Shown here: positions 25,297 through 50,530 of the stretch, in pieces | Numbering within the stretch: the first letter of the stretch is position 1 | How the letters are laid out: each line of letters starts with the position of its first letter | Origin: Prolixibacter denitrificans | GTDB taxonomy: Bacteria > Bacteroidota > Bacteroidia > Bacteroidales > Prolixibacteraceae | DNA length: 64,000 bases | Reading direction: 5' to 3' | NCBI RefSeq assembly: GCF_003014495.1 | Contig: NZ_PYGC01000004.1 | Coordinates: 124,001 to 188,000 of the forward strand | Notes under the pieces: generated by a model | Database searches by the model: none | Seen by the model: only the letters and a program-made list of their open reading frames with translations | Told to the model about the DNA's origin: nothing | Position numbers and translations under genes: made by a program

Positions 25297-25308
25297 GATT
25301 TGCATTGA

Positions 25309-28300: not shown

Positions 28301-28434
28301 ATCACCACATTCACTCCCGGAATCGATTCTCCTTCTGGACTTTTAACAGACCCTTTTATTTCTGTTTGCGCAAAGGCCTGTTGTCCCGTAAGGAATCCCA
28401 GAAAGGCCAGAAACAGAAAAAGCTTTTTTTTCAT
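25309..28434 (-). CDS. SusC/RagA-like TonB-dependent transporter
   Basis: A 1041-residue outer-membrane protein: signal peptide ending QQAFAQ, carboxypeptidase-D-like domain (EIKGSVKSPEGESIPGVNV, about 24-100), TonB-box/plug region with EAIDEVVVTALG and the SusC signature LYGSRGKDGAIMITTK near residue 210, then a beta barrel ending in GFGLGVKF with terminal Phe. It imports ligand across the outer membrane using TonB energy, together with the SusD-like partner. It is at the head of the two-gene unit; a hairpin with T-run lies in its leader (28484-28513). Confidence 0.95.
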   Translation of the reverse strand: MKKKLFLFLAFLGFLTGQQAFAQTEIKGSVKSPEGESIPGVNVVIKGTTNGTITDIDGNYTIQAPGGGVLVFSFIGYKPQEIPIDGQKTINVVLKKNTEAIDEVVVTALGIKTEKKRLGYATQEITGKQLTQVEDVNVMNTLAGKVSGLTVHTKTGLFQAPDFLLRGKKPLIVLDGIPISTDFYDISSDDIASINVLKGTAASALYGSRGKDGAIMITTKTAAKGKLNISVSNSEMFSAGFVAFPKVQSEYGNGSNGQYKFVDGAGGGIHDDDLIWGPKLDQGTKIVQWNSPIKDLQTGELIQWKGPVKGTKYDDSNRYERVATPWVSHPDNLKNFLETGIVSNSNFSISSSNDKGSVRLSGSHMYQKGMVPNSSLKSTGINMSSHYKISNNLTLDAKLSYNKVYTDNYPRHGYGPLNHMYTIVVWMGYDVDVRDMRDYWMKGRENYKQANWNYLWYNNPYFMAYECTQGYDRNVVNSNVSLNYQLLPNLSIQARGAVRNRFQYENRKTPKSYLYYGNSVLGNFEDWKTKWNYYDFDVLATYTKSFSDKFSLDAFAGASSFSYDYDYQYASTDGLITGGLFNLGNSLGPVKAENRIEKKATRSVYGSVNIELFKAFYGTVSGRNDWSSTLPVDNNSYFYPSVSGSFVFDNIAKLPSWMSHAQVRSTWAQVSTDFSVYSLYNTYSNTAMYGSTPGMSYPSGLANSEIKPAKSTSWELGGNIGLFKNRLSIDATYYQVKDENQIIDLPISITSGFDSRKVNGNVYNTTGVELMVNVVPVLTRKMRWNMAINWSTNKKVLSEIYGGADKFGYLHKDERVDSYYATVWQKSPDGQTIIDQASGLPIRDPFARKLGHLDANWQFGFNNTLTVGHWQFNAQVDGRVGGIMPSLTVAKLWWGGKHPESVANRDAEYAGKLYVPDGVAVVSGDVQYDTDGNIVSDTRVFAKNEKGLKYSNWAMTYGYRAKGLGVNTFDASFIKLREASIKYDCSSLFGGTVVKEAYVQLIGRNLAMWKKAKLIDPDFGNDDHLQDPSARYVGFGLGVKF

Positions 28435-34965: not shown

Positions 34966-35706
34966 CTACTTCAGAAATTTCTCACGGCGCTGCAGATTGG
35001 TCAATCCAACCAGGAGAAATATCACGCTTCCAACCGCCAGAAAAATCCGGTTCTTCTGGGTTATCTGACTCCAGATTAACTCATTCATATCATCGGGAAT
35101 CGAGAATGGATTTAGGAAAACATTCCACTGGGTGCGACTAAGCAGATCACTCAGGATTAACAGCGTAATTCCAACAATCACCATGATGACCGCTGTTCCG
35201 TTTCCGTTTTTCACTACGGTAGACAACATAAACGACATACAACCGAGAAAAACCACGGGGAACATCAGCTGCAGAGACATCGAATTAATTGGAAACGGCA
35301 CCAAGGCATAGTAGCCCAGTACGCAAAATACCAACAGGAAGAGCCAAACCAGAATAAATATCATTACCAAACGAACCAGCCACACTTTGTAACGGTAATC
35401 GGGTATCCCGAAAAGGATTTCCAGGATACGTGCGTCAGCGTCGTTCTGAATGCCAAAAGCAGTAGGATAAAAGATGAGCAGCACCGCCGGGAAATACAAA
35501 ATTCCGTAAACCGACGACATGGTGTAGCCCGGCTCGTTAAAGACCAGATTAATGGCCAGCAGAATGTAAAAAACCAGCGATGCCAGGAAAAACCACAGGA
35601 ACCGTCCGGCAAATATGATTTTCATGTTGTACCGCGCCATGCGAACAATCAAATCCAACCAGCGGTTTTTCACGATTCTATCGATATATCTTGTATTCAT
35701 CTTCAA
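34966..35706 (-). CDS. ABC-2 type transporter permease subunit
   Basis: A 246-residue inner-membrane protein with six hydrophobic helices (roughly 32-52, 68-88, 108-135, 145-162, 170-188, 220-236) and the ABC-2 permease feel of RILEILFGIPDYRYKVWLVR as a cytoplasmic coupling loop. It has no ATPase of its own. It is the last gene of the efflux operon, 22 bp after the RND-ABC fusion, whose C-terminal ATPase domain is its most likely motor. Substrate unknown. Confidence 0.8.
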   Translation of the reverse strand: MKMNTRYIDRIVKNRWLDLIVRMARYNMKIIFAGRFLWFFLASLVFYILLAINLVFNEPGYTMSSVYGILYFPAVLLIFYPTAFGIQNDADARILEILFGIPDYRYKVWLVRLVMIFILVWLFLLVFCVLGYYALVPFPINSMSLQLMFPVVFLGCMSFMLSTVVKNGNGTAVIMVIVGITLLILSDLLSRTQWNVFLNPFSIPDDMNELIWSQITQKNRIFLAVGSVIFLLVGLTNLQRREKFLK

Positions 35707-35728: not shown

Positions 35729-38700
35729 TCAACTGTTTTCTTTTTGAATTCCTTTCAACAGGCACAAATAAGCCTCTTCCAGCACCGGTTTCACCACTAC
35801 GGCATCCGGAGCCGGTTGAATTGCCGAGATGTACCGGACTTTAATCTGGTCACCATCGCGCATGTGGTGCACGACCCGATCTTTTCCTTCCATGGCATCA
35901 AATTCTTTTGCCGGAATCAGGAACTGCCAAACCAGGCCATCGGCCAGTTTCAGCATGTTGTTGGGATGACCCGTATAACGCAGTTCACCGCGGTTGATAA
36001 CAGCCACCTGGTTACACGAACTGGAAATATCCTCGATGACGTGTGTTGAGAAAATGACCACGCGCTCACGACTCAATTCCACCAACAGGTTCCGGAAACG
36101 GATACGTTCGCGTGGATCGAGGCCCGCAGTCGGCTCATCGACAACAAGAATGCGCGGCAGATGCAACAGGATTTGTGCAATTCCAATCCGCTGTTTCATT
36201 CCACCGGAGAACGAACCAATTTTTTCGTTTTTCCGATCCCACAGGTGAACCGCTTCCAGCACGTATTGCACACGGGCTTCGCGAGCCTCTTTTTCCGACA
36301 AACCTTTCAACATGGCCTGGTAATCGAGGAATTCCCACGCCGACATATTTTCGTACGTACCGAATTCCTGCGGAAGATAACCAATCAGTCCCTGCAGCTC
36401 TTCGCGTTTGTGTTGCGTATCGACACCGTTGATCCAAACCTTACCATAGCTCTGGTCGTAAATTCCGCAAATCACACGCATCATCGTCGATTTACCGGCG
36501 CCGTTCGGTCCGAGTAAACCAATCATACCCGTTCCAATTTCCAGCGAAACGCCACGCAATGCTTTGAATGGGTCGCGTTTACGACCGATAACCGGGATTT
36601 GTTCCACCAGTTTGAAGAACAATCGGCGCAAGCCGGCAAAACGACCTTTCAACCGTTCGATGTTCACCTTTTCGCGATACAGTTTATCAGCTGTCACTTT
36701 CACTGCCAACACGAAATACCACAACACCGCAATCATCACCACCGAACCGATGGTTTCCCATTTCAGATAAAACAACGCCAATGCCACTGCCGGAAGTCCC
36801 CAATACAGCAGGCGATGAATGATAATTCCCATTTTCACCGGCCGGTCTTTTCCGCTTTGCGCGGAAGAATAAGCCAGTAGCAGTTGTACTCTGCGCCAAA
36901 TCGACAAAACCATGAGGAAGACAAAATGTGCCATGACAAACATCCACCAACCGCTGTCGAGATAAGAGAACGTGAAGTACGTCAGGAAGCCCAATAGCGG
37001 CAGTTCCCAGACAAAATCATCAAAATCGCGCCACGAATGATACGTTTTCAGCTCGCCTTTGCGTTCGCGAATGTTCCGGTTGCCCTTCCATTCACGAATA
37101 AACCGATTGCCCCGATCGTAAATCTTCACGAGGTTCTGTATCCTGATTTGAATCGGTACATCCGAATCGATTACCGTTTCTGTGGCTTTTCGCAGACTAT
37201 TTTTCACGAACCAGGTCGTTCCGGGAATCAATACCGTCAATCCAACCAGATCGACCATCTGCCACATGAATGTATCCACTTTCGTGAAGATGAGAATACA
37301 GCCACCTACGTAAAGCAAAATCTGAAGGATTTGAATCCGAAGATCGAGCTTGCGCACCCAGTTAATCGCATTCTCCAGGCCAAAATAGAAGGTCGGTATA
37401 AAGATGAGAGTTAGCAATGTGCTCACACTTAGTCCGCCAATTACAGTAATAGCGAACGGTGCACCAATTGCTCCGACATATTCATTGTCGCCCATCGCCA
37501 GTGGCAGCATGGCCACGATGGTGGTAATAGCCGTAATCAGAATCGGACGAATACGCGACATTCCGGCCGTAATCAGGGCACGTTCTTTCCGGTAACCACG
37601 CTTCCGAAGAATACCGGTATAGTCGATGAGTATAATTCCGTTGTTCACAACAACCCCAAGCAATATCAGGAAGCCCGTTAACGTGTTCGCATTGAACAGG
37701 CTATTCCCGGTAAAGATGAGGGCCAGGAATGATCCGATGGCCGCCAGCGGGATGGAAAACATCAAAACAAACGGAGTGGACAATGATTCGAATACCGAAG
37801 CCAGAATCATAAGGATCAGGATAAAGGCCGCCAAAATCAGGAAATAAAACTCCTGCAGATCATCTTCTTCGTGAATAACCTGAACAGCAACACCCGAAGG
37901 CAGGTTGTAATTGGCTACGATCTGGTCCACTTCCATGCGGTAAGCATCGAGCAAGGTCTTCGAATCCTGCGCCTCGTCGATGAAACGATAGCGCACTTCA
38001 ATCTGCTTTTCCTGGTTCACCCGGTCGATTTGCGCGTACCCGGAAGAGAAAACCACGTCGGCTACTGACTGCAATTCGTGGGTACCACCATTCGCATCGG
38101 TAATGAGTAAATGCCTTAAATCATCAGCCGAACGCTCTTTCTTGTCCTTCGCATCTTCATCACGAATGATGATATCGTATTCGTCGTTTCCTTGTTTGAA
38201 CGGAACGTTGGTATTGATTTCCGGGTTGAAAGAATTCAATTCAGAAGCAATATTGGACAAAGGAATATCGTAAGCAGTCAGCAGCAGTGGATGAAACTCG
38301 AGATGAACTTCCGGCCGATTGTCGGAATAACTCACCTGCACGCGGCGCATCGACTCCAGATTTTCGAGATAATACTGAAAATCGGAAGCCACATTCTTCA
38401 TCGTTTCGAAGTCCTGTCCTTTGATGAGAATGCGTTCCCAGTTGGTTCCCACTCCCAGCAACCGCATGAAGCTGGTTCCACCTCCTCCAAACGAACCGCC
38501 ACCTCCGCCACCGCGGTTTCCGGAAGAAGCCGGTTCTTCGTCGACACTAATTTCAGCGCCGGAAATATTTTCAACACGATTTTCGACATCGCTTTTAATT
38601 TCGGCTATGCTTCGTTTGCTCGTCTTCTTATAGTCGTCTTTCAGCGTAACCGTAACGACCGCATTATCTTCTTCAATTTTACTAACGACATCCTGCTTTT

Positions 38701-40456
38701 CCTCTATTGGTTCGAGACGGCTTTCGATTTGGGAAACGACCTTGTCAGTCGATTCGAGCGTCGAACCGGAAGGCATGGTCACATAAATCTGAAAATCGTT
38801 GGTCTCAACTTCGCTGAGGTTATTCACGCTCACCGCCAACACGATAAAAATGGTCAGGAAAAAGAAAACCAGTGCACCGATAATCGTCCTGGCCGGACTT
38901 CGGAGCGTATTCTTCAACACCATCACATACCCCTGAATCAACGGGTTCCGCATGGAAACCTGGTTGAAATTAATCGAGGTACTTTTCTTCCTGGAAAGGA
39001 AATAGTGGGCCATCATGGGCACCAGCAACAGCGCCACAAACAAACTGATGGTGAGAGTCGAAATAATAGAAACACCCACATTTTTCCCGATAAGGCTAAT
39101 CAGGTAATTATCGGAAAAAAGGAAAGGCAAAAATACCGTGATAGTGGTCAATGTAGCCGCCACAATCGAACGCCACACTTCCGTAGTACCCTGAATGACT
39201 GCCTTCGCCGGAGGAAGGCCCTGTGATCGTAATCGGTATATATTTTCAAGCACGACGACGCTATTGTCGAGCAACATCCCGATAGCCAGCGCCATTCCCA
39301 CCAAAGTCAGACTATTGATAGTGATATCGGCCGCATAGAAGAAGTTGAACGCCGAATACACCGAAATGGGAATGGCCAGAGCAATGACCGAAACCAGCTG
39401 GAAGTTCTTCAGGAAAATCCAAAGCACAAGCACGGCCAGAAGTCCACCCACCAAAGCCAGTTCAATAATCTGGTTGATGTTGTCCTCCATGGTTTGCGCC
39501 GTGTTGTTCTGGACAACAATCTCAATATCTTTCGAAGCCAACTTCTCATTCAGCTTCTTAACCACATCGAGCGTTTTGTGCGAAACATCAATCAGGTTCG
39601 CCTGTGCGTCATTCACCAGCCGAACTGTCACCGCATCCTTTCCGTTGACACGGGAATAAGAGGTCTCTTCCTTCACACCGAAATAAACATTCGCCACATC
39701 CTTTAGCAGGATGGGACCATCGGCAATTACCAGGTTTTCCAGCGACTTGATATCGGTATACTCGGCATTGACGTGCACGATGTACTGCCGGTTCGATTGA
39801 TATACATTTCCGGCGAAAGCACGGGTGCGGTAACTTTGGGCAATTTTGCTCCGGATAGTTGCCGGCGTAATGCCATACGCCTCGCACATCGCCTTCTTCA
39901 GTCGCACCTCAACGGATTTCTCACGGCCACCATAGGCCGTTACTCCCGCAACTCCGTCGATGTTTTCCAGTTCAGGAACAATCTCCTGATCAGTTTCATT
40001 CCTTACCCTGTCGACACCACCGGAACCGCGCACCTGAAGCTCCATGAACTGGTTGTTCATCTGGTCCAGATCCACCTTCATCACGGTTACCCGGAATTCT
40101 TCAGGAAGCGACTGTTTCGCTTCATCAATCTTCTCCTGTAGCTTCAGATAAGTATATTTGAAATTGACGTTCTTCTTGAACTCAACGACAATGGTACCCC
40201 GTTGCGATTGTGCTGTCGATTGCAGATTTTCAATTCCCTGCATGGTTCCAATCGCTCCTTCCAACGGAATGATGGCCTCGTTCTCCATGTATTTGGGGTC
40301 CACCTCCGTTTGGGTATTCACCTGAACGAAAAGCACGGGCAGCTCAGCATTGGGAAACAGCTCCATCGGGAGATTCTGCCAGGAGATATATCCCAGCAAA
40401 CTCAGCCCGATGAATAACATGCTGATAAGGGTCTTTCTGTTTATAATAAATTTCAT
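35729..40456 (-). CDS. RND efflux pump fused to membrane-inserted ABC ATPase domain
   Basis: One uninterrupted 1575-codon frame. Residues 1 to ~1040 are an AcrB-like RND pump: TM1 at 11-28, two porter/docking loops, and the proton-relay segment GMLLDNSVVVLEN with Asp397 (the second Asp of AcrB is Asn398). A glycine-rich stretch sits in the second loop near 645-660. Two extra TMs follow (about 1045-1085). Then comes what looks like the first ABC strand, IQIRIQNLVKIYDRGN (1102-1117), about 175 residues with four membrane segments, and the rest of the ATPase from FKALRGVSLEI (1297): Walker A GPNGAGKST 1316-1324, Q-loop Gln1363, signature SGGMKQ 1417-1422, Walker B ILVVDE 1436-1441, H-loop His1472. 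All ATPase motifs are intact. It sits after a normal RND gene and before an ABC-2 permease in a seven-gene operon. I infer an exporter that couples ATP and proton energy, or a scaffold joining both pumps. Confidence 0.9.
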   Translation of the reverse strand: MKFIINRKTLISMLFIGLSLLGYISWQNLPMELFPNAELPVLFVQVNTQTEVDPKYMENEAIIPLEGAIGTMQGIENLQSTAQSQRGTIVVEFKKNVNFKYTYLKLQEKIDEAKQSLPEEFRVTVMKVDLDQMNNQFMELQVRGSGGVDRVRNETDQEIVPELENIDGVAGVTAYGGREKSVEVRLKKAMCEAYGITPATIRSKIAQSYRTRAFAGNVYQSNRQYIVHVNAEYTDIKSLENLVIADGPILLKDVANVYFGVKEETSYSRVNGKDAVTVRLVNDAQANLIDVSHKTLDVVKKLNEKLASKDIEIVVQNNTAQTMEDNINQIIELALVGGLLAVLVLWIFLKNFQLVSVIALAIPISVYSAFNFFYAADITINSLTLVGMALAIGMLLDNSVVVLENIYRLRSQGLPPAKAVIQGTTEVWRSIVAATLTTITVFLPFLFSDNYLISLIGKNVGVSIISTLTISLFVALLLVPMMAHYFLSRKKSTSINFNQVSMRNPLIQGYVMVLKNTLRSPARTIIGALVFFFLTIFIVLAVSVNNLSEVETNDFQIYVTMPSGSTLESTDKVVSQIESRLEPIEEKQDVVSKIEEDNAVVTVTLKDDYKKTSKRSIAEIKSDVENRVENISGAEISVDEEPASSGNRGGGGGGSFGGGGTSFMRLLGVGTNWERILIKGQDFETMKNVASDFQYYLENLESMRRVQVSYSDNRPEVHLEFHPLLLTAYDIPLSNIASELNSFNPEINTNVPFKQGNDEYDIIIRDEDAKDKKERSADDLRHLLITDANGGTHELQSVADVVFSSGYAQIDRVNQEKQIEVRYRFIDEAQDSKTLLDAYRMEVDQIVANYNLPSGVAVQVIHEEDDLQEFYFLILAAFILILMILASVFESLSTPFVLMFSIPLAAIGSFLALIFTGNSLFNANTLTGFLILLGVVVNNGIILIDYTGILRKRGYRKERALITAGMSRIRPILITAITTIVAMLPLAMGDNEYVGAIGAPFAITVIGGLSVSTLLTLIFIPTFYFGLENAINWVRKLDLRIQILQILLYVGGCILIFTKVDTFMWQMVDLVGLTVLIPGTTWFVKNSLRKATETVIDSDVPIQIRIQNLVKIYDRGNRFIREWKGNRNIRERKGELKTYHSWRDFDDFVWELPLLGFLTYFTFSYLDSGWWMFVMAHFVFLMVLSIWRRVQLLLAYSSAQSGKDRPVKMGIIIHRLLYWGLPAVALALFYLKWETIGSVVMIAVLWYFVLAVKVTADKLYREKVNIERLKGRFAGLRRLFFKLVEQIPVIGRKRDPFKALRGVSLEIGTGMIGLLGPNGAGKSTMMRVICGIYDQSYGKVWINGVDTQHKREELQGLIGYLPQEFGTYENMSAWEFLDYQAMLKGLSEKEAREARVQYVLEAVHLWDRKNEKIGSFSGGMKQRIGIAQILLHLPRILVVDEPTAGLDPRERIRFRNLLVELSRERVVIFSTHVIEDISSSCNQVAVINRGELRYTGHPNNMLKLADGLVWQFLIPAKEFDAMEGKDRVVHHMRDGDQIKVRYISAIQPAPDAVVVKPVLEEAYLCLLKGIQKENS

Positions 40457-40525: not shown

Positions 40526-43500
40526 TTACTCCTCTTCGTCTGTCACTGTATCCAGACTACGAATCGTTTTTCCGGTAAACAGATCGTACACACATGGAAT
40601 CACCACCAACGTTAGAATGGTGCTGGTTACCAAACCTCCGATAACCGCCAATGCCATCGACGAACGCAACGAAGCGCTCTCTCCGAAACCAAATGTCAGC
40701 GGAAGCAACGCTAATATCGTCGTCAAACTGGTCATGATGATTGGACGGATACGTTGTTGTCCCGCTACCGCGATAGCTTCCCGTTTTTCCATACCACCTC
40801 GCCATAGCTGGTTAATGCGGTCGACAAAAATGATAGAATCGTTGACCGCAATTCCCACCAGCATTATCACACCGATTAGCGCCATGATATTGAACGGCTG
40901 TCCCATGATGAAGAACAGCAACACAGTTCCAACCAGCGAGAACGGAATAGTCAGTAGAATGACGAATGGATGAATCAGCGACTCAAACTGTGAAGCCATT
41001 ACCATATACACCAGAATAATGGACAAAAGGAGTGCGAACTCGAGACTATGCATCGAGTCCTCGCGTTTCTGCTCTTCGCCGGCTATTTTGATTTTATAAT
41101 CGTTAGGCAACTGCATGCCGGCCAGTTTGCTGCGCATCTGACTTACGACTTTATCCAGCGGCACGTTTTTATCCAAATCAGCCATCACCTTCCCAATACG
41201 GTTTTGGTTAAGACGATAAATCTCTTTTGGCGAAACGGACTCTTTCAACCTGGCAATCTCATCCAACCGGATGACTTGTCCATTGCTGTTTAGCTCAATA
41301 TTATGAAACTGCCTCAAACTCATCTTTGGAGTATGAATGGTGATGTCGCGCATCTCACCTCCCTTCTCCATCTGGCCTGCATCCTGTCCTTCCAGCTGAG
41401 CAGTAATCTGGCTGACCACCTGCTCCACGCTTAGGTTATGCATTCCGGCCATCAAACGGTCGACTTCCACATCTACTTCCGGATAACCGTCTTCGATGTT
41501 TGTGCGCATATTGTACAATCCGGGAATATTCTGGACTCTTTTCATCACCTGCCGGGTAAGTGTATCGATTACGTTCAAATCTTCTCCCTGAACCTCCACC
41601 ACTACTGGTGCATCCTGCGTACCCAGAATGCTTTGCAGCGCTGTTTCGTCCTGCACAAAGTTGACTTCGAACTGTGGATTGTCTTTGTACCATTTCGAAA
41701 CCGCTTCCACCACATTGCGTGAACTGTATTTCGCGTTCGGCTTCAGCACGACTTTTACCTCAGCCGTATTTTCTCCTTCAAAAACACTTTGCGTTGTTTC
41801 GGACAAATCGGAACCCGGACCAATGCGGGAATAGATAGACTGCACATTGTCGCCCAACAGTTCTTTCAGCAGCGCTTCCATTGATGCAACTCCATCCGAT
41901 GTTCGTTCGAGCGGTGTGCCTTCGGGCATTTTTACCTCGATGGTGAATTCGCGACTATCGGCTTTGGGCATAAACTCACTTCCGATAAAAGGATAAAGCA
42001 AAGCTGAAATAACCAGCAGAGCAATTCCTCCGCCAATCACCCACCAACGACGTTCCAAAATCCGGGACAGAAAAGTTCCGTACCCTTTTACCTGAACTGA
42101 ACGAAATTTTAGTGTCGCCTCTTTCTTCCGGTAGATGCGGTGATACATCATCGGAATCAGGAAAATAGCGACGACCAAAGAAGATAGTAGTGAGAAAGCC
42201 ACGGTCCAGGCCTGGTCGCGGAATAACTCGCCTGAAGCGCCGTGCAGATAAACGATGGGCAGGAAAACTACGATGGTCGTCAACGTCGAAGCCGTGATGG
42301 CTCCTCCAACCTGGGCCGTACCAACAATAGCCGATTCACGCACTGACAAACCGCTCTCGTGATTCCGGAAAATATTCTCCATCACCACAATAGCATTATC
42401 CACCAGCATACCAGCTCCCAACGCCAGTCCTCCCAACGTCATAATATTCAGGGTTAACCCATTAAAGTACATCAGGTTGAAAGTGGCAATAATGGATATG
42501 GGAATCGCCAAACTGACGATAAGGGTAGTTCCAAATCTTCTGAGGAACAGGAACAGCACAAACACAGCCAGTACAATACCAATGAGCAGTGTGTTCTTCA
42601 CCTCATTAATAGCACTCTTGATAAATGTTCCCTGGTTGCTCACTACCGTGAAATGGTAACCCGGAAGCGCTTTGGTAATCTTGGCCAGTTCCTCGTTTAT
42701 ATCCTGAACTGCTTTTACGGTATTGAACCGCGTTTCCTTGTAAATCGCCAGTCCGATACAACGCTTTCCGTTGACACGGACGATGTTTTCCGGCTCTTTA
42801 TTCTGATAAGAAACATGAGCAACTTCCCGCAGGAAAATTGGTGTTTTCTGAGCCGTTTCATCACCTGCGACAGGCGCTTTGTAACCCACAACCAGGTTGT
42901 TGAAGTCGTCGATATCGCGCAGCATGCTCACGCCTTTTACGATGTACTGCATACCGGTTTCGGTAATGGAACCACCGGAAATACTCCGGTTGAAAGCCTC
43001 GATCTTCTGACTCAGTTCGTCCATCGTCAGGTTGAAAGCTTCCAGTTTATACGGATCCGTGTCAATGCGTACTTCCCGCTCTTCCTGTCCCGCCAACTCT
43101 ACCTCGGCGATACCTTCCAGCCGGATCAGTTCGTTCCGGATATAGTTTTCAGCCACTTTCCGCAAGTCATTCATATCGGAAATCGACTCGTTGGAAAGAC
43201 CAACGATCATGACCGGCGCTGTATTTGGATCGTGCTGGGTTATGTTCAGCTCATCTATTTCGCTGTTCTGCGAGTAGTTCGACAAAGCTTTCTGCAAATC
43301 GAGAAAAGCTTCGTCCATATCTTTTCCCCACGCATATTCGACCGTTACCTGCGCCGAACCCGTCCGGATAATCGAAGAAACCTGTGTGACTTTGCTTTGG
43401 CGGATGGCCAGCGCTTCGATGTTTTTCACAAAGAGCGTTTCCATCTCTTCAGGCGGACGTTCACCCGATTTTATCTCCACGTACAGGCGCGGCGAGTTCA

Positions 43501-43621
43501 AATCGGGAAACAGGTCAATTCCCAGTCGTTGGTACGAGATGATACCGAGCAACAGGATTGCCAGTACCGCCATCAGCACCGTAACCGGATAATTCACCGA
43601 AAAATTCGTTAGTTTTCTCAT
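40526..43621 (-). CDS. RND efflux transporter permease (AcrB/HAE-type)
   Basis: A 1031-residue RND pump of normal length with 12 TMs: TM1 near 12-30, a large periplasmic loop, TMs 2-6 around 335-540, a second loop, and TMs 8-12 from about 855. The relay motif GMLVDNAIVVMEN has Asp408 aligned with AcrB Asp407/408, the second Asp being Asn409, as in many HAE-type pumps outside Proteobacteria. With the adaptor upstream and the TolC-type channel it forms the standard tripartite set. A second, fused RND subunit follows 69 bp later, so the working trimer may be mixed, like the heteromeric MdtBC pump. Confidence 0.94.
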   Translation of the reverse strand: MRKLTNFSVNYPVTVLMAVLAILLLGIISYQRLGIDLFPDLNSPRLYVEIKSGERPPEEMETLFVKNIEALAIRQSKVTQVSSIIRTGSAQVTVEYAWGKDMDEAFLDLQKALSNYSQNSEIDELNITQHDPNTAPVMIVGLSNESISDMNDLRKVAENYIRNELIRLEGIAEVELAGQEEREVRIDTDPYKLEAFNLTMDELSQKIEAFNRSISGGSITETGMQYIVKGVSMLRDIDDFNNLVVGYKAPVAGDETAQKTPIFLREVAHVSYQNKEPENIVRVNGKRCIGLAIYKETRFNTVKAVQDINEELAKITKALPGYHFTVVSNQGTFIKSAINEVKNTLLIGIVLAVFVLFLFLRRFGTTLIVSLAIPISIIATFNLMYFNGLTLNIMTLGGLALGAGMLVDNAIVVMENIFRNHESGLSVRESAIVGTAQVGGAITASTLTTIVVFLPIVYLHGASGELFRDQAWTVAFSLLSSLVVAIFLIPMMYHRIYRKKEATLKFRSVQVKGYGTFLSRILERRWWVIGGGIALLVISALLYPFIGSEFMPKADSREFTIEVKMPEGTPLERTSDGVASMEALLKELLGDNVQSIYSRIGPGSDLSETTQSVFEGENTAEVKVVLKPNAKYSSRNVVEAVSKWYKDNPQFEVNFVQDETALQSILGTQDAPVVVEVQGEDLNVIDTLTRQVMKRVQNIPGLYNMRTNIEDGYPEVDVEVDRLMAGMHNLSVEQVVSQITAQLEGQDAGQMEKGGEMRDITIHTPKMSLRQFHNIELNSNGQVIRLDEIARLKESVSPKEIYRLNQNRIGKVMADLDKNVPLDKVVSQMRSKLAGMQLPNDYKIKIAGEEQKREDSMHSLEFALLLSIILVYMVMASQFESLIHPFVILLTIPFSLVGTVLLFFIMGQPFNIMALIGVIMLVGIAVNDSIIFVDRINQLWRGGMEKREAIAVAGQQRIRPIIMTSLTTILALLPLTFGFGESASLRSSMALAVIGGLVTSTILTLVVIPCVYDLFTGKTIRSLDTVTDEEE

Positions 43622-43662: not shown

Positions 43663-44718
43663 CTACTTAACTACCTTTACTTTCGACCGGTTACGCAATG
43701 TTTCGAAACCTTTGGTAACCACCCGGTCGTTTGCTTTCAGGCCGGAAGTAACCTGTACTTCGTTAGCATTTTCCAGTCCGGTTTCGATAACCCGCTGCTG
43801 TGCCGCACCTTTCACGACGATATAAACCGTTTTTCCGCGGTTACCCGAAACGATAATGTCTTTGGGAATAACAATAGCACTATCTCTCCGCGCTACCTGT
43901 ATATCAGCTTTCACAAACATTCCGGGACGCAATTTCAAATCGGGATTATCAATGCGGATTTTCCCGATAAAAGTCCGGGTTTCGCTGCTCACAACCGGCG
44001 ATAGTTCACTGATTTTTCCCGAAAGGGTATCTTCCGGAAGGGTATAATTGGTAATATCAACGTCTTGTCCAACCTTCACGACAGAGAGGTTTTTCTCGGG
44101 CAGATTCACCTCCATATTGAGTGTGTTGTAATCCATTAGGGTAGCCACCGCTGTTCCCGAAGCGACACGTGTACCATTGGTGAAATCGGGCAAATCAACC
44201 AGGATTCCGGTAAACGGAGCCCGGATATCCATCTTCGCCAACTGCAATTGCGCGTTTTCGTAATCCTGCTTTGCCTGGCTCAACGATACTTCCGAATTTT
44301 TCACTTCACGAAGGGTGACGCCGCCTTTTTCGTATAGCGACTGTTGTTTCTCGTACTCCAGTTTAGCAATCTCGTAGTTCAGTTTTTTGGTTTCGAGCGA
44401 AACTCCGTTTTTGTATTCCTCATCTTCCAGCTTAACAATCGTCTGCCCCTTCTGCACCTTATCGCCTAAGCTAAATGGGTGCCCGGTTTTCGGATTGCGT
44501 TGCAGATAATAGTTACCAGCCATCTCTGTACTCAACGTGGCTTCGCTTGCTGCCTTCGTCGTTCCTGTTGTGCTAACGTATTGAACAATCGAGCTTTTTT
44601 TCACATCCTGAACTGAAACCGGAATGGCCAGTTCGTTATCTGTTTGGTTATTCTGATTGCCACATGCTGCTAATAGAGGTAAAAGAGCAGCGAGCAACCA
44701 TTTATTCGAGATCTTCAT
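43663..44718 (-). CDS. RND periplasmic adaptor (membrane fusion protein), lipoprotein
   Basis: A 351-residue adaptor with lipoprotein signal MKISNKWLLAALLPLLAAC. A split biotin/lipoyl domain (about 60-105 and 170-200, with KVQKGQTIVKLEDEEY and IRAPFTGILVDLP) encloses a short helical hairpin rich in Q/E/K, followed by the beta-barrel domain (SVVKVGQDVDITNY) and the membrane-proximal domain. It bridges the inner-membrane pumps to the TolC-type channel. It lies between the channel gene and the first RND gene. The short hairpin, about 25-30 residues per helix, fits RND rather than MacA-type ABC adaptors. Confidence 0.93.
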   Translation of the reverse strand: MKISNKWLLAALLPLLAACGNQNNQTDNELAIPVSVQDVKKSSIVQYVSTTGTTKAASEATLSTEMAGNYYLQRNPKTGHPFSLGDKVQKGQTIVKLEDEEYKNGVSLETKKLNYEIAKLEYEKQQSLYEKGGVTLREVKNSEVSLSQAKQDYENAQLQLAKMDIRAPFTGILVDLPDFTNGTRVASGTAVATLMDYNTLNMEVNLPEKNLSVVKVGQDVDITNYTLPEDTLSGKISELSPVVSSETRTFIGKIRIDNPDLKLRPGMFVKADIQVARRDSAIVIPKDIIVSGNRGKTVYIVVKGAAQQRVIETGLENANEVQVTSGLKANDRVVTKGFETLRNRSKVKVVK

Positions 44719-44742: not shown

Positions 44743-46230
44743 TTATTTCGTTTGGCTATCGCGATATTCTTTCAGAAATTCTTCCGGTACAACCGATTTT
44801 TTCGCTTCAAAGTCGTATAGCGTTTGCACCTTCAGGTTCAACAGCTCGATTCGGTAATCGATAAGCGATTGCGCATAAGCCATTTTCTTCTCCGAAAGCT
44901 GTGTCTGATACAGGTTTAAATCCATACTGGTCAGATCACCGTTCTGGTAACGTTCCAGGTTAATATCATAAGTCAACTGTGCGTTCTTCTCGTTGATTTT
45001 AGCAATGTCAATCTGGTTTTTCATATTCTGAAGACTTCTCACCACTTGACGAATGTCCAGTGTAATCTGAACTTTTTCATTGCTCAGATTCAGTTCCTGC
45101 GTTTTAATGACAGCTTCCTGCGCTTTAATTTGAGCCTTCTTTTCGCCCCAGTCCCACAGCGGAATATTGAACGCCACATTTACCCGCGGGTTCCGGGTCG
45201 GATTTTTATACACATCCTTCAACTCCTGGTTGTCACCCAACAAACCATAGGTAATACTGACATCCCCGCGAAATTCATTGGCTGCCTTCACCTGAATCAG
45301 ATCGAACTGCGAATTCTGTACGTTAATCTCGCGTTGACGAATCTCCATGCGGGAAGCCAAACCGTGCTGAATCGCTTTTTGCTGATCCACAGTTACAGGT
45401 TTTACTTCTACATCAGCCATCACGGTGATATCTTCATAAATATCCATGCCGATGTACTGCTTGAACTGGTCTTTGTAATTCTCCAGGGTCACCCGCTGGT
45501 TATCCCTATCCGAACGTGCTGTCTCCAGGTTCACCTCAGCCTGGTACAGCTCTTCCTGAGCTGCCAACCCGGCATCCACCTTATTTTTGATGATATCGTA
45601 ACTCTTCTGAGTATTTTTGTATTCATCTTCCTTAATGTTCAGGCTCATTTGTGCCAGGTAAACATTGTAGAAGAATTGTGATACATTCTTCTCGAGGTTC
45701 AACCGTTGCATGGCATAGCTCAGCATGGCATTTTCGTTATCCAGCTCCAGCTGTTTCAACTCCATCTTTTGCCGGTTATAAGTAAACAACGGTTGTGTAA
45801 GACTCAAATACAAGTTGTTGTAAAATGATTTGTCCCGAACACCTGTGTACTCACTGTAACTGTTCCTCCAGCCAAATTGGTTGTTGAGCGAAATAGTTCC
45901 ATCGGTGAGCAAAATCGGCTGCTGAACGGTAAATGTTCCAAACGTCAGGAAATTTTCCGTGGTGTTCCATTGCGAGATCAAATCGTTGAATTCCCGGCTT
46001 TGGCTGTATTGAAGTGGATTTAGATTCAGTGAAAACTGCGATTTCATCGAAGCCCGCTTCGCATTCAGCGACTCGCTCGTCCGTTCCAGGTTCAGCCTCG
46101 AAGCAATCAAATCAGGGCTATGCTTCACTGCGATTGCCATGGCATCATCGAGGGTCAGAATTTTTTGTGCATGCAACGGCAATGTCACTCCCAGTAACAA
46201 CAATAAATAGAGATACTTTCGTTTATTCAT
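44743..46230 (-). CDS. TolC family outer-membrane efflux protein
   Basis: A 495-residue exported protein (signal MNKRKYLYLLLLLGVTLPLHAQ) with the duplicated OEP pattern: long coiled-coil helices (for example LDNENAMLSYAMQRLNLEKN and LRSLQ-type heptads near 385-420), each repeat bracketed by short beta strands, and SLTQPLFTYNRQKMELKQL as the typical repeat-one strand. It forms the trimeric exit duct shared by the RND pumps and perhaps by the ABC part of this operon. Gaps of 11 bp upstream and 24 bp downstream show tight operon packing. Confidence 0.93.
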   Translation of the reverse strand: MNKRKYLYLLLLLGVTLPLHAQKILTLDDAMAIAVKHSPDLIASRLNLERTSESLNAKRASMKSQFSLNLNPLQYSQSREFNDLISQWNTTENFLTFGTFTVQQPILLTDGTISLNNQFGWRNSYSEYTGVRDKSFYNNLYLSLTQPLFTYNRQKMELKQLELDNENAMLSYAMQRLNLEKNVSQFFYNVYLAQMSLNIKEDEYKNTQKSYDIIKNKVDAGLAAQEELYQAEVNLETARSDRDNQRVTLENYKDQFKQYIGMDIYEDITVMADVEVKPVTVDQQKAIQHGLASRMEIRQREINVQNSQFDLIQVKAANEFRGDVSITYGLLGDNQELKDVYKNPTRNPRVNVAFNIPLWDWGEKKAQIKAQEAVIKTQELNLSNEKVQITLDIRQVVRSLQNMKNQIDIAKINEKNAQLTYDINLERYQNGDLTSMDLNLYQTQLSEKKMAYAQSLIDYRIELLNLKVQTLYDFEAKKSVVPEEFLKEYRDSQTK

Positions 46231-46241
46231 GGATTTTCAGG

Positions 46242-49200
46242 TTATTTTTCTTTAACCAGTTTCACTGCATCGGCATAAACGATACTGGCGTCGGTTTTAT
46301 TCGTTAATTCAATTTTCGCGGTATCAGGTGAGAAATAGTAAGCTCCCAGTTCAACCCAACCGCCATCGGTGCTTTTAATATCAACTGCCGGATGATCTTC
46401 TCCGTCATCGTGATGAATGGTGTAAGTGTATTCACCCTTATCCTCACCCCGCCAACGCATGTTGATTTTCGGGACGTAAGCATATACGGTGTAATAACCG
46501 GACTCCTTAACCGGAACATTCCAGATGGCTTCGCGATCGCCAGTGCCTCCTTTGGTGTAATACGCCGACCGAACCGTTTTCCCATAGAAATTAGTATTCG
46601 TTGTTAAAGTCCATTCCACCGGCGGACGCCAGAAATTCAGACCTTTGTACTTCTGGTCTTCGTTGTCCATCAGTTGAGCTTCGAAAATCTTTTTCAGGAA
46701 ACTGCTCGACTCGGGTTGTATCAGTTTGAATTCAGGGTCTTCGTTATCAACAATCGTCTCATTCGGAGCTGTTCCATCCTCATAATCAATCACCTCTTCC
46801 CCGTTAAATGGAATTCGTTTTTCGTCCAGCTCAATCTTCTCGAAACGCTGAGTCAATACAGCCGGAATATTGGCTGACGCGAACGTATTAGTCATCATCA
46901 TGCGGGGCTCTTCGTTGAGCAAGATGCCAACCCTTTTGGTTTGATGAGGTGCAATAGCAACAATCCGATCCACTGTCTCCTCATCTCCGCCTCCGCCGAA
47001 ACGTCTGCCTCGTCCCCCCTGTCCACCAAGGCGGAAAGTAAATTTCACTACGCCCGGTTCTTTTCCGGTATTCGACAAATGGAAAGTCACCATGGTCGGG
47101 GTACGATCGCCATCTTTCACTTTCACAGCCTCCACATCAGTAACGAGGTAACCCGGCAGCTCTTTCGAATTGTACCATGAAGAAAGATAATCGTCGAGTT
47201 GCAGATTGAATGAAGAAGCCAAATCGGTTTTTAGATCATTGATACCGGTTTCCCGGAAACGGTTTTTCTCCAGGAAGGAATTCAGCACGTTATCGAACTT
47301 ATCTTCGCCGGCAGCAGCTTTCATCAGCGCAAACAGGAATTCACCTTTCGTTTGAATGATATTATCAACAATATCCGGATCGTCCTGATCCTGCAATACC
47401 TGAGCAAACGATTTATCCTGAAGCTCCATGTTTCCGCGCTCATCGCTCGACATTCCCATAAAATTTCGCATGAAACCCGGACGATCATCCGACGTCCGTT
47501 CGACCAGATACGATTCGAGCACGCGGTTCATGATGGGATACTTCGGCGAATTGATTTCATTCACGTAAGTGTAATAATCGGGAAAGAGAAAATACGGATT
47601 CGGATTGTCATCGAAATTACGTCCGGGACCACCAAATCTCATGCGGAATCCGCGGCCTTCATCGGTTGACAAGAGCGCTCGGTTCACAAAATCACGGAAC
47701 AGATTTTCCTCCGACTCCCGTTCTGTAACACTTTCGTTGGTATGCCGGCTCCGGCGCTCGGCCCAACGCTTCAATAAAGCGAAGTTAGCTCCGGAAACCA
47801 TGTAACCGCCTTCCGGCAGAAAGACCATCTCGGGTTGTACCTGCTCGCGGGTAACCGTCCACAGGTGCGAATAAGAGTAAAACTGCACCGGTACTTCCAC
47901 CAGTTCGAGCCGATGATACGGATACCGAAGTTGCAATTTCGCCTCGAACGTATTCTTCAAATCACGAATAACCGGCGCCAGTGAATCCTTTACTTCCGTG
48001 AAGAACTCGTCGAAGCGGTTATGTTTTTTCAGGTAAGTCAGGCTATACTGAATACTGTCGACGGTGATGGAACGGGTTTGGTAATTTCCCATCACCAAAG
48101 AAATCTGTTGCAAAGGCTCTTTATCCCGGAAGGTTAGTTTACCGTCAGCCCCAATTGTTTTTTCACCTTGCGACAATACTTTCAAACTATCATTCGCTGG
48201 TTCTACGGTAAGTGAAAAACGGGTAAATCCCTTGTGTAACCATCCCAGGCCTTTTGAGGAATAGGTAATTCCGGGTGTTGGGTACCAGCGGGTTTCGGGA
48301 GTCAATAATACATAATTGCTCTGCACAAATGCGTGCCGCTTATCGATGGTCGCATTGTCATCAAGAGTAATCTTATCGAGTCTTTCCCTGTCGTAATCCA
48401 GGTAACACAGCGACTCGTCAATGGTGCCGGCATATTGCACTTTTACCTGCAATGAATCACCCGGTGCGACAGCATTTTGCGGTTTAATTTTCAGCAGCTG
48501 CTGGTCACGTTCGAATCCGGCACCTTCCACATTTGTAACCTTCAAGCCGGGATTCAACGTCAGAATGATTTCTTTCACCGGTTCACTGGCCGTATTTTTC
48601 AGTTGCATATCAGCAGTAGCGGCAATCGAATTTCCGTTATGCTTCACGTCCAAATCGCAACGGGTCATTTGCATCACCGGAGCCTTGGCGTACTGGTCAT
48701 TCAGTGCAATCATTTCCTTCCGGTGATTGTCGAACTGACTCACCCGGTTTACATAGAAAAAGCCAAGCACCAATGCGAAAATCAGCGAACCGGATCCGAT
48801 TACGGTCACAACTCCGTTTACAGTTTTCGACTGATTCAACCGCTTCAGCAATAAAATGGTCAGGCAAATAAATCCAACGCCAAGGAAGAAATAGATTCCA
48901 CGTTGCATCAGCAAGCTATTCAGGTTACCAAAGCCCACAAAATCGGACCAGGTTAGCGGCAACCGATAGGCCATGTAATCGAACAGAAAATGGAATTTTC
49001 CCTGCAGATAGAAAAGCGTTGCCGCGATGTAGCCCAACAGCAGAATAAAGGTCAACGCCTGGTTCCGGATAACCGACATCAGCAAAAAGGCCAATCCCAG
49101 AATGAACAGCAGTGTAGGTACACTTACCAGGAAGAAATAGTAAAAATAGGGCATCAACCGGAACGCACTGTAAGGCGAAATCAGGTTGAAAACGGCCACC

Positions 49201-49583
49201 ATCACCAACGCAACGACATTCAGCAACAGGAAAACATACAGGTTCCCCAGTGTTTTCCCGATAACATAATCAGCGTTCGACATGGAACGCATGTAAATAA
49301 CCTCCGTGGTGTCGAGCTTTTTATCCCTTTTTAGGAAGTCGGATGCCAGGAAAATGGCGATAATGGCCTGCGCCATATTAATAATGTACAGGTTCATGAA
49401 CGGAACCTTGGCAGGAAGCGCAACCATATCGTCGAACGGAAATCCGACTTTAGTTTGATAAAAGAGATTGAAAAAGAAGACAAATACCAGCGCCAGGATG
49501 GCAAAAATCCGGAAAAACCAACTGCGGAACAGCGTTTTGGATTCGTATGTGGCTACGGTACGAATATGGTGAAGTGATGCCAT
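46242..49583 (-). CDS. ABC permease fused to non-catalytic M1-peptidase-like and golvesin-like domains
   Basis: The 1113-residue protein starts with an ABC-2 type membrane part of about seven TMs (residues ~20-285). From ~300 to ~860 it resembles M1 aminopeptidases: N-terminal beta saddle (LNPGLKVTNVEGAGFE), then LELVEVPVQFYSYS and a C-terminal helical region. However, no HExxH zinc motif and no GxMEN motif occur; the expected place reads EENLFRDFVNRALL. The last ~125 residues (from about 985; YYTVYAYVP, TYTIHHDDGE, GGWVELGAYYF, VYADAVKLV) fit the golvesin/Xly CBD-like fold. ABC permeases with an active M1 domain are known; this one appears to keep the fold as a periplasmic binding module. 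It follows its ATPase by 50 bp. Confidence 0.82.
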   Translation of the reverse strand: MASLHHIRTVATYESKTLFRSWFFRIFAILALVFVFFFNLFYQTKVGFPFDDMVALPAKVPFMNLYIINMAQAIIAIFLASDFLKRDKKLDTTEVIYMRSMSNADYVIGKTLGNLYVFLLLNVVALVMVAVFNLISPYSAFRLMPYFYYFFLVSVPTLLFILGLAFLLMSVIRNQALTFILLLGYIAATLFYLQGKFHFLFDYMAYRLPLTWSDFVGFGNLNSLLMQRGIYFFLGVGFICLTILLLKRLNQSKTVNGVVTVIGSGSLIFALVLGFFYVNRVSQFDNHRKEMIALNDQYAKAPVMQMTRCDLDVKHNGNSIAATADMQLKNTASEPVKEIILTLNPGLKVTNVEGAGFERDQQLLKIKPQNAVAPGDSLQVKVQYAGTIDESLCYLDYDRERLDKITLDDNATIDKRHAFVQSNYVLLTPETRWYPTPGITYSSKGLGWLHKGFTRFSLTVEPANDSLKVLSQGEKTIGADGKLTFRDKEPLQQISLVMGNYQTRSITVDSIQYSLTYLKKHNRFDEFFTEVKDSLAPVIRDLKNTFEAKLQLRYPYHRLELVEVPVQFYSYSHLWTVTREQVQPEMVFLPEGGYMVSGANFALLKRWAERRSRHTNESVTERESEENLFRDFVNRALLSTDEGRGFRMRFGGPGRNFDDNPNPYFLFPDYYTYVNEINSPKYPIMNRVLESYLVERTSDDRPGFMRNFMGMSSDERGNMELQDKSFAQVLQDQDDPDIVDNIIQTKGEFLFALMKAAAGEDKFDNVLNSFLEKNRFRETGINDLKTDLASSFNLQLDDYLSSWYNSKELPGYLVTDVEAVKVKDGDRTPTMVTFHLSNTGKEPGVVKFTFRLGGQGGRGRRFGGGGDEETVDRIVAIAPHQTKRVGILLNEEPRMMMTNTFASANIPAVLTQRFEKIELDEKRIPFNGEEVIDYEDGTAPNETIVDNEDPEFKLIQPESSSFLKKIFEAQLMDNEDQKYKGLNFWRPPVEWTLTTNTNFYGKTVRSAYYTKGGTGDREAIWNVPVKESGYYTVYAYVPKINMRWRGEDKGEYTYTIHHDDGEDHPAVDIKSTDGGWVELGAYYFSPDTAKIELTNKTDASIVYADAVKLVKEK

Positions 49584-49633: not shown

Positions 49634-50530
49634 TTATTCTTCGTGCCAGCGTTGATTTAGTTCATGCTCCATGAAATTCACGTAAGCATGTTCCAGGTTC
49701 GGTTCAATTTGTTCTCCGGCGTAACCGTTCACATCACGGGCAACCACCTGTACTTCCCAGCCAGACTCAGCCGGAATAGAAGATATAATGGGATACTTCT
49801 CCTGTATCTCCTGGTACTCGGTTTCGGTAGCTGAAATCTGCCACACATTTCCGCGGGCCATTTCAATCAGCTTGTCCGGAGCACCGTGATAGGCAAGAGA
49901 GCCTTGGTTCAGCAGAGCCATATCGGTACAGGTACTGGAGATATCGCCCACAATGTGCGTGGAAAGAATGATAATAACTTCCCGCTCGCTGATAGACGAG
50001 AGCAAATTCCGGAAACGGATGCGCTCCTCCGGGTCGAGTCCGGTGGTCGGCTCGTCCACAATGATGATTTTCGGTTCGCCAATCAGTGCCTGCGCAATAC
50101 CGAGACGGCGTTTCATACCGCCCGACAGCTTGTTGGCCATGCGGTTGCGGGCTTCGTATAGCCCAACCTCTTCCAGCATCTGTTCCACTGCACTCATCCG
50201 GGCTTTCCGTTGTTTGATACCCGCCAGACGGGCACTATAATCCAGGAATTCCCAAGTGGTTAGTTTGGCGAAGAAGCGGAAGTCCTGGGGTAGGTATCCC
50301 AACATATTCCGGATTTCGCGACGATGCTTCTGTAAATCGAGGCCATTTACCAGCACCTGCCCTTTCGAAGGTTTCATGAGGGTAACCAAAATGCGCATCA
50401 GGCTCGATTTACCGGCACCGTTAGGGCCTAGCAAACCAAACATACCATTTCCGATCTCCAGCGATACCTCTTTCAGAGCATGATTTCCATTCGGATAAAT
50501 CTTATTCAGATCTTTAATCTCAATGTTCAC
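49634..50530 (-). CDS. ABC transporter ATP-binding protein
   Basis: A 298-residue ATPase with Walker A GPNGAGKSS (35-43), Q-loop in GYLPQDFRF, signature LSGGMKRR, Walker B IIIVDE and switch histidine in STHIVGD; all are intact. The NGMFGLLGPNG segment closely resembles the GMIGLLGPNG of the ATPase domain in the RND fusion, so the two belong to the same subfamily, related to the ABC-2 exporter ATPases. A C-terminal ~80-residue extension follows. It is the first gene of the operon and most likely drives the permease/M1-like protein encoded next. Confidence 0.95.
   Translation of the reverse strand: MNIEIKDLNKIYPNGNHALKEVSLEIGNGMFGLLGPNGAGKSSLMRILVTLMKPSKGQVLVNGLDLQKHRREIRNMLGYLPQDFRFFAKLTTWEFLDYSARLAGIKQRKARMSAVEQMLEEVGLYEARNRMANKLSGGMKRRLGIAQALIGEPKIIIVDEPTTGLDPEERIRFRNLLSSISEREVIIILSTHIVGDISSTCTDMALLNQGSLAYHGAPDKLIEMARGNVWQISATETEYQEIQEKYPIISSIPAESGWEVQVVARDVNGYAGEQIEPNLEHAYVNFMEHELNQRWHEE

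Follow-up and report, generated by a model that had tools for sequence, protein, structure and literature searches.

A covalent RND–ABC fusion with a membrane-interrupted ATPase, encoded in a conserved seven-gene operon of the Prolixibacteraceae

We describe here a gene of Prolixibacter denitrificans in which an RND permease and an ABC ATPase are read in one frame, and the comparison with its relatives supports regarding the product as a true covalent RND–ABC fusion whose ATPase is interrupted by membrane helices. The gene comes from assembly GCF_003014495.1 (contig NZ_PYGC01000004.1, 124,001-188,000), and all coordinates given below are within this 64,000-nt stretch, the whole of which we call the window. 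As to what the fusion protein (FUS) is for, we consider it moderately probable that it acts as the connecting subunit in a composite exporter that spans the envelope, with an ABC transporter tethered to an RND pump.

The fusion gene and its divided ATPase

FUS is a single stop-free frame, kept in relatives, and its coding strand is the minus strand, the plus strand of the same region containing stops. The initial annotation had proposed a single frame of 1575 codons that holds both an RND pump and an ABC ATPase, and Pfam bears this out: ACR_tran covers residues 2-1025 (E 1.7e-164; 549.6 bits against a cut-off of 28), a full-length match that places the protein in the RND permease superfamily, and ABC_tran covers residues 1301-1444 of the same frame (E 9.6e-29; 101.2 bits against a cut-off of 25), which places it among the ABC ATPases as well. 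Six extra transmembrane (TM) helices come with the fusion, two between the RND part and the first strand of the ATPase and four in an insert inside the ATPase itself (Table 1). That annotation gave neither the strand nor the two TM helices at about 1039-1092, nor the seven-gene operon to which the gene belongs. The nearest named record is from Prolixibacter bellariivorans, with 97% identity across the final 548 residues.

Table 1. Genes of the operon and parts of the fusion protein, with positions in the 64,000-nt window
Feature	Position	Strand	Length or residues	Remarks
upABC, stand-alone ABC ATPase	49634..50530	minus	298 aa	
TMD_M1	46242..49583	minus	1113 aa	ABC-2-like permease domain, M1-peptidase-like part without HExxH, golvesin C-terminal domain
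TolC-like outer membrane channel	44743..46230	minus	495 aa	Pfam OEP, E 6e-43
MFP, periplasmic adaptor	43663..44718	minus	351 aa	Pfam HlyD_D23, E 4.1e-24
RND1, unfused RND permease	40526..43621	minus	1031 aa	Pfam ACR_tran, E 2.5e-223
FUS, RND–ABC fusion	35729..40456	minus	1575 aa	single stop-free frame; kept in relatives
FUS: RND permease domain	37382..40453	minus	residues 2-1025	Pfam ACR_tran, AcrB alignment
FUS: two extra TM helices after the RND domain	37181..37342	minus	residues about 1039-1092	model helices, hydropathy over 31 rows
FUS: first strand of the ABC ATPase with A-loop tyrosine (predicted)	37106..37153	minus	residues 1102-1117	matrix site, model strand, Y1113
FUS: insert inside the ATPase	36575..37105	minus	residues 1118-1294	helix with conserved R1121, four TM helices, basic tail
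FUS: ABC ATPase core and C-terminal domain	35732..36574	minus	residues 1295-1575	Pfam ABC_tran, motifs kept, Foldseek best 4yer
TMD2, ABC-2-like permease (predicted)	34966..35706	minus	246 aa from TTG, or 244 aa from ATG at 35700	

The segment IQIRIQNLVKIYDRGN at residues 1102-1117, which lies ahead of the four-TM insert, had been taken for the first strand of the ATPase, cut off from its core by four helices. Nineteen stand-alone ATPases from copies of the operon supplied a matrix for the first strand and A-loop, 12 positions long, with which we scanned every fusion N-terminal to its Walker A motif; in 31/31 rows the best site was the IQIRIQNLVKIYD segment, at 10.9-25.1 bits as against at most 6.3 at any other site. 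In addition, residues 1028-1575 were modelled from the 31 rows (mean pLDDT 81.8, with a modest pTM of 0.60), and in the model a strand at 1104-1113 is followed by long helices through the insert and then by the ATPase core, for which Foldseek returns ABC ATPases, 4yer being the best and NosDFY chains also being among the matches. Matrix and model are both consistent with a detached first strand as proposed; a strand unrelated to the ATPase was looked for as well, and the matrix, which prefers the 1102-1117 segment in every row, gave no sign of one.

The motif positions given for the ATPase were also correct: Y1113 (A-loop), K1322 (Walker A), Q1363, SGG at 1417-1419, D1440/E1441 and H1472 are each identical in all 31 rows, the window's included, and the tallied catalytic positions are identical in 31/31 fused and 19/19 stand-alone ATPases. 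What departs from an ordinary ABC domain is the layout, common to all 31 aligned rows, in which some 177 residues and four TM helices stand between first strand and core; contiguity of the two is usual for an ABC ATPase, and is a feature outside the Pfam definition. Over the 31 rows, mean net charge is +5.1 and +8.7 in the two long loops (the one with the first strand and the one leading to the core), +2.7 in the loop that joins helices 2 and 3 of the insert, near neutral (+0.3) in the short loop after the RND part, and -0.8, -0.5 and -0.5 in the outside loops. With basic loops around the first strand and ahead of the core, and slightly acidic ones outside, strand and core are placed on one and the same side of the membrane.

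As for the insert, R1121 is conserved in 31/31 and 25/25 rows and W1123 in 31/31 and 22/25. Pfam finds no match to the insert in the window's row and chance-level matches in the others, and a search against the sequences of solved structures (PDB) finds no relative. The idea that the insert is a degenerate ABC-2 permease is unsupported, chance-level matches being all that our searches gave. At four loci (L084-L087, of genomes G105, G223, G078 and G272, with frames of 1633, 1623, 1532 and 1509 aa) the linker matches in two pieces, these proteins having a membrane insert of a different length.

The operon and a possible composite exporter

FUS is the sixth gene of a seven-gene, same-strand cluster with gaps of 11-69 bases, in the order upABC, TMD_M1, TolC, adaptor (MFP), RND1, FUS and TMD2. 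At 19/20 distant loci all seven genes stand in this order, and the remaining locus is truncated by the end of its contig; TMD2 directly follows FUS at all 33 named and all 20 distant loci. The run from TMD_M1 through TolC, MFP, RND1 and FUS to TMD2 is complete in 29/33 named loci, and the other four are on short contigs. In our sample of the order (295 genomes), TMD_M1 matches strongly in 42 (E 7.8e-168 or better) and the fusion in 40, with both in 37; in the five genomes that have TMD_M1 alone a contig end interrupts the operon, once inside the fusion itself, and three (G011, G262 and G282) have the fusion and no strong TMD_M1 match. A further 19 genomes of the order have partial TMD_M1 matches alone, at E 2.1e-8 or worse. 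Pairwise distances of the seven proteins across 19 loci correlate at 0.67-0.93, as vertical descent of any operon would have them do.

Several smaller observations belong here. At one locus (L093, in G238) the gene order is kept with gaps of 927 and 878 bases around the fusion gene, and at another (L096, in G283) it is kept with a 510-base gap before that gene. A scan for promoters gave 25 sites where 23.8 were expected, and one for terminators gave 22 where 18.3 were expected, so that neither was informative. Elsewhere in the window, at 23800-28434, we note a TonB-dependent receptor and SusD-like pair of a kind that is ordinary in this phylum.

The operon holds the gene set of a tripartite efflux pump, with RND1 and FUS, an HlyD_D23 adaptor and an OEP channel, and at 19/20 loci it also holds two different ATPases and two different permeases, provided that TMD2 is an ABC-2 permease. 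Of the genome's other ATPases, it is upABC, the second one of the operon, that scores best against the fused one, and the two align at 42% identity over 278 columns. In a tree of 40 ATPase sequences (15 of the 31 fused, 14 of the 19 stand-alone, nine other ATPases of the genome and both YbhF domains) the fused and stand-alone proteins form two groups joined at 100/99 against the rest, a result to be read with the tree's long outgroup branches, outgroups from two genomes, two loci dropped for an unmatched motif pattern, and open forks. This limited tree suggests that fused ATPase and upABC are sister groups, a relation that wider outgroups could alter; if they are sisters, the ATPase was apparently duplicated, and one of the copies seems to have been taken up into an RND gene and to have acquired the insert, in whichever order.

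The case that the operon codes for two ABC-2-like permeases is supported as well, if more weakly, by profiles and a structural model. TMD2 itself has no match in Pfam, and among its relatives ABC2_membrane_3 appears in 2/23 and ABC2_membrane_2 in 1/23. Its model (pLDDT 87.6) recovers, in the best 46 rows of a Foldseek search, ABC transporter chains throughout, at E 0.009 and worse with none at 0.001; TM-scores in the best 25 rows are 0.46-0.63, and the chains include those of NosDFY, PmtCD, ABCG2 and CcmABCD. For TMD_M1, the window's row falls below both Pfam cut-offs (ABC-2 at 21.9 bits against 27.2, M1 at 25.4 against 27.7), while over 18 rows ABC2_membrane_2 is found at E 0.01 or better in ten, an M1-like match in eight, and the golvesin C-terminal domain in all, the window's own golvesin match being above its cut-off. 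A functional M1 peptidase is ruled out by the absence of HExxH from every one of the 18 rows, so the M1-like part is probably a binding or structural domain. TMD2 and TMD_M1 show no detectable relation to one another (probability 1.2). Further TMD_M1-like frames were seen, one just ahead of the operon (L127 267-3656) and three in stretches where no other operon gene was matched (L128 12370-15819, L129 1832-5167, where the sequence is in two frames, and L130 10634-12499).

With an ABC-2-like TMD2 directly downstream, and a second ATPase and second permease in the same operon, the simplest reading is that of an ABC transporter tethered to an RND pump, and, judging from the gene content, the fused ATPase most likely powers a heterodimeric ABC transporter of this sort rather than turning the RND part. 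In such a machine the fused ATPase and upABC would form a heterodimer beneath TMD2 and TMD_M1, and the six extra helices would fix the resulting ABC transporter to the flank of the RND pump. ATP would drive the first step, taking the substrate out of the cytoplasm or inner membrane and handing it over on the periplasmic side, and the RND pair, adaptor and TolC would then carry it across the outer membrane, powered by the ion gradient. The initial annotation had offered a dual-energy or cross-regulated exporter, and dual energy does remain plausible for the complex as a whole; a covalent ATP motor of the RND part becomes a minority reading, given the ABC-2-like permeases and the second ATPase of the operon.

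We can also guess at stoichiometry. A mixed trimer of two RND1 to one FUS, on the pattern of MdtB2C, would give one fused ATPase and thus one ABC heterodimer per pump, and might in this way solve the mismatch between three-fold and two-fold symmetry. RND1 is no closer to FUS (342.9 bits) than is another RND of this genome (342 bits), so that the mixed trimer has gene order as its sole argument. The fully specified machine of two energies, with a 2:1 RND trimer, a fused and split ATPase as one half of a docked ABC-2 heterodimer, loading by ATP and expulsion by the ion gradient through TolC, is offered as a tentative picture that may well be wrong in its particulars.

A different role for the same heterodimer would be that of sensor or gate, where ATP binding reports a substrate in the membrane and switches the RND pump on while the ABC part itself moves little. 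The covalent tether between ATPase and pump would suit such a role, as would the large domains of TMD_M1, which look made for binding rather than catalysis (HExxH in none, and golvesin in all, of the 18 rows). We nevertheless think it unlikely, as both ATPases retain their catalytic residues and Pfam scans of the operon proteins find no regulator domain.

The RND part and its proton relay

The initial annotation remarked that RND pumps are proton-driven, and this needs some care here. Across 25 aligned rows of the fusion, the AcrB relay residues D407 (D397 in FUS), R971 and T978 are kept in every row, D408 has become N (22 rows) or T (three rows), and K940 is N in all 25, so two of the five residues of the AcrB-type HAE-1 relay are changed. 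Unfused RND1 has the same changes, and another RND of this genome (L008) is changed at D408 and K940 too. The changes are thus no mark of fusion, and, as far as alignment can tell, the relay residues argue neither for nor against an ATP-driven RND.

Subfamily profiles leave the RND part without a narrower label, since none of the best 25 of 196 NCBIfam families reaches its cut-off, the best being RND_permease_2 at 465.7 against 1250. When a profile of the whole fusion is compared with solved structures, each of the 60 matches listed of 93 aligns in one stretch within residues 2-1042 or less, covering RND sequence and at most the beginning of the linker, and the best-scoring chain among the matches listed is MdtB. 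A glycine-rich loop is also found in the RND part (window 38468-38518, residues 647-663), with glycine at 650 in 24/25 rows and at 659 in 20/25, and it is otherwise more variable.

The relay residues also enter into the reading in which the ATPase acts directly on the RND part as its motor or energiser, its ATP turnover shifting the conformations of the RND TM helices and perhaps replacing the proton relay. One might cite for it a covalent link retained at the loci examined, ATPase motifs identical in 31/31 rows and the replacement of D408 and K940 in 25/25; the same replacements in unfused RND1, and at D408 and K940 in the further RND of the genome, take much of the force from the last of these, and a direct motor would have no need of the ABC-2-like permeases and second ATPase. 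We give it little credence, and continue to prefer an ABC transporter tethered to the RND pump.

A more sceptical view is that two independent transporters were joined by an accidental in-frame fusion which later became fixed, the parts being mechanistically uncoupled. Other RND fusions do exist. For example, the same genome has, outside the window, an RND gene with a frame of 1446 aa (L006 280-4620) that matches the RND query over 2-1038 and whose tail reads as TolC-like, which would make it another RND fusion. It resembles FUS in having a C-terminal partner in the same frame, and differs in that the partner reads as an outer membrane channel and not an ATPase. An accidental, uncoupled fusion sits poorly with the conservation of R1121 and W1123 in the insert, and with the fact that no version split between RND and ATPase was found among the loci examined, and we hold it to be improbable; the tethered transporter again seems the better account.

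Spread, known relatives and meaning

Spread was gauged with a single sequence, that of the linker region, as the query, over genome samples that overlap and with counts that include the window's genome or the centre of the sample; such a query may miss distant members, so the counts are lower bounds. The architecture is widely present in its own family, being matched in at least 110 of 120 genomes of the Prolixibacteraceae (88/92 of those of good quality), and it is matched in at least 40/295 of the order and in a few genomes elsewhere in the phylum: at least 6/395 of the phylum, with at least 1/197 in the class of G410 and at least 2/198 in the order of G358. At class level we count three true matches in 295 genomes, again a lower bound, after taking two weak ones as chance, namely those of G924, whose frame reads as another ABC exporter, and of G769, a 72-aa frame beside unrelated genes. 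No match was found among 72,556 plasmid records.

A frameshift or assembly error between the RND and ATPase parts was looked for and not found. Fusion frames of 1509-1633 aa are present at 20/20 distant loci, and no split of RND and ATPase into separate frames at the junction was seen among the loci examined. Short frames in the order sample (8/40) are at or near contig ends, judged by coordinates and locus length. In the family sample 11 genomes have frames below 1500 aa, and seven of these were examined, leaving out G937, G990, G995 and G1019. Three (G951, G945 and G1039) run into a contig end; G979 has a break near residue 354, within 160 bases of a contig end; G934 changes frame near residue 122; and G1037 and G1002 break in stretches that contain runs of N, at about 325-340 (10 N) and at about 1439-1501 (148 N) respectively. 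In none of the seven does the break lie between RND and ATPase. That the fusion is an artefact of assembly or sequencing can be practically dismissed, since the architecture recurs in many independent assemblies, including a complete chromosome (Draconibacterium orientale, NZ_CP007451.1), and distant genomes match at 26-47% identity in the linker region.

Where does this leave the fusion among known exporters? MdtABC of E. coli, which is not known to have an ABC part, combines two RND permeases with one adaptor, as is the case here. Its active form is the MdtB2C heterotrimer (PMC12802153, in excerpt). The TMD2 model resembles, at E 0.009 and worse, the ABC-2-type permease chains of NosDFY, PmtCD and CcmABCD. 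The ATPases of these three systems are separate, uninterrupted proteins, not known to be fused to any RND. MacAB-TolC and other ABC tripartite pumps are not known to include an RND. They do combine an ABC transporter with an adaptor and TolC (PMC8277102 and PMC5595328, in excerpt). The YbhG-YbhF-YbhS-YbhR cluster of E. coli, an ABC exporter, likewise encodes an HlyD_D23 adaptor together with a pair of membrane subunits and a pair of ABC ATPase domains (PMC8277102, in excerpt). However, YbhF carries both ATPase domains in a single chain, no RND protein appears in the annotated stretch, and in our limited tree the YbhF domains are not sisters of the fused ATPase. In the titles and abstract openings of open PMC papers we found no description of an RND–ABC fusion or of this operon, and domain databases may well list the architecture. 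Every part of FUS belongs to a known superfamily; what did not turn up in the open papers searched is the covalent union of RND and ABC, with a membrane-split ATPase, in a fixed seven-gene operon, and this architecture would be a new class if coupling were shown.

The classes of tripartite exporter follow from the transporter in the inner membrane, which is of the ABC, RND or MFS type (PMC8277102, in excerpt), and the FUS family breaks this sorting within one chain, a break kept in at least 110 of the 120 genomes of a single bacterial family. Such wide presence in the family, together with the lack of any match in the plasmid records, suggests a core envelope function rather than an acquired resistance. 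If the coupling is real, one can ask directly whether a single complex is able to join an ATP-driven to an ion-driven step, how an RND pump with three-fold symmetry accommodates an ABC transporter with two-fold symmetry, and how an ATPase functions when membrane helices part its first strand from its core.
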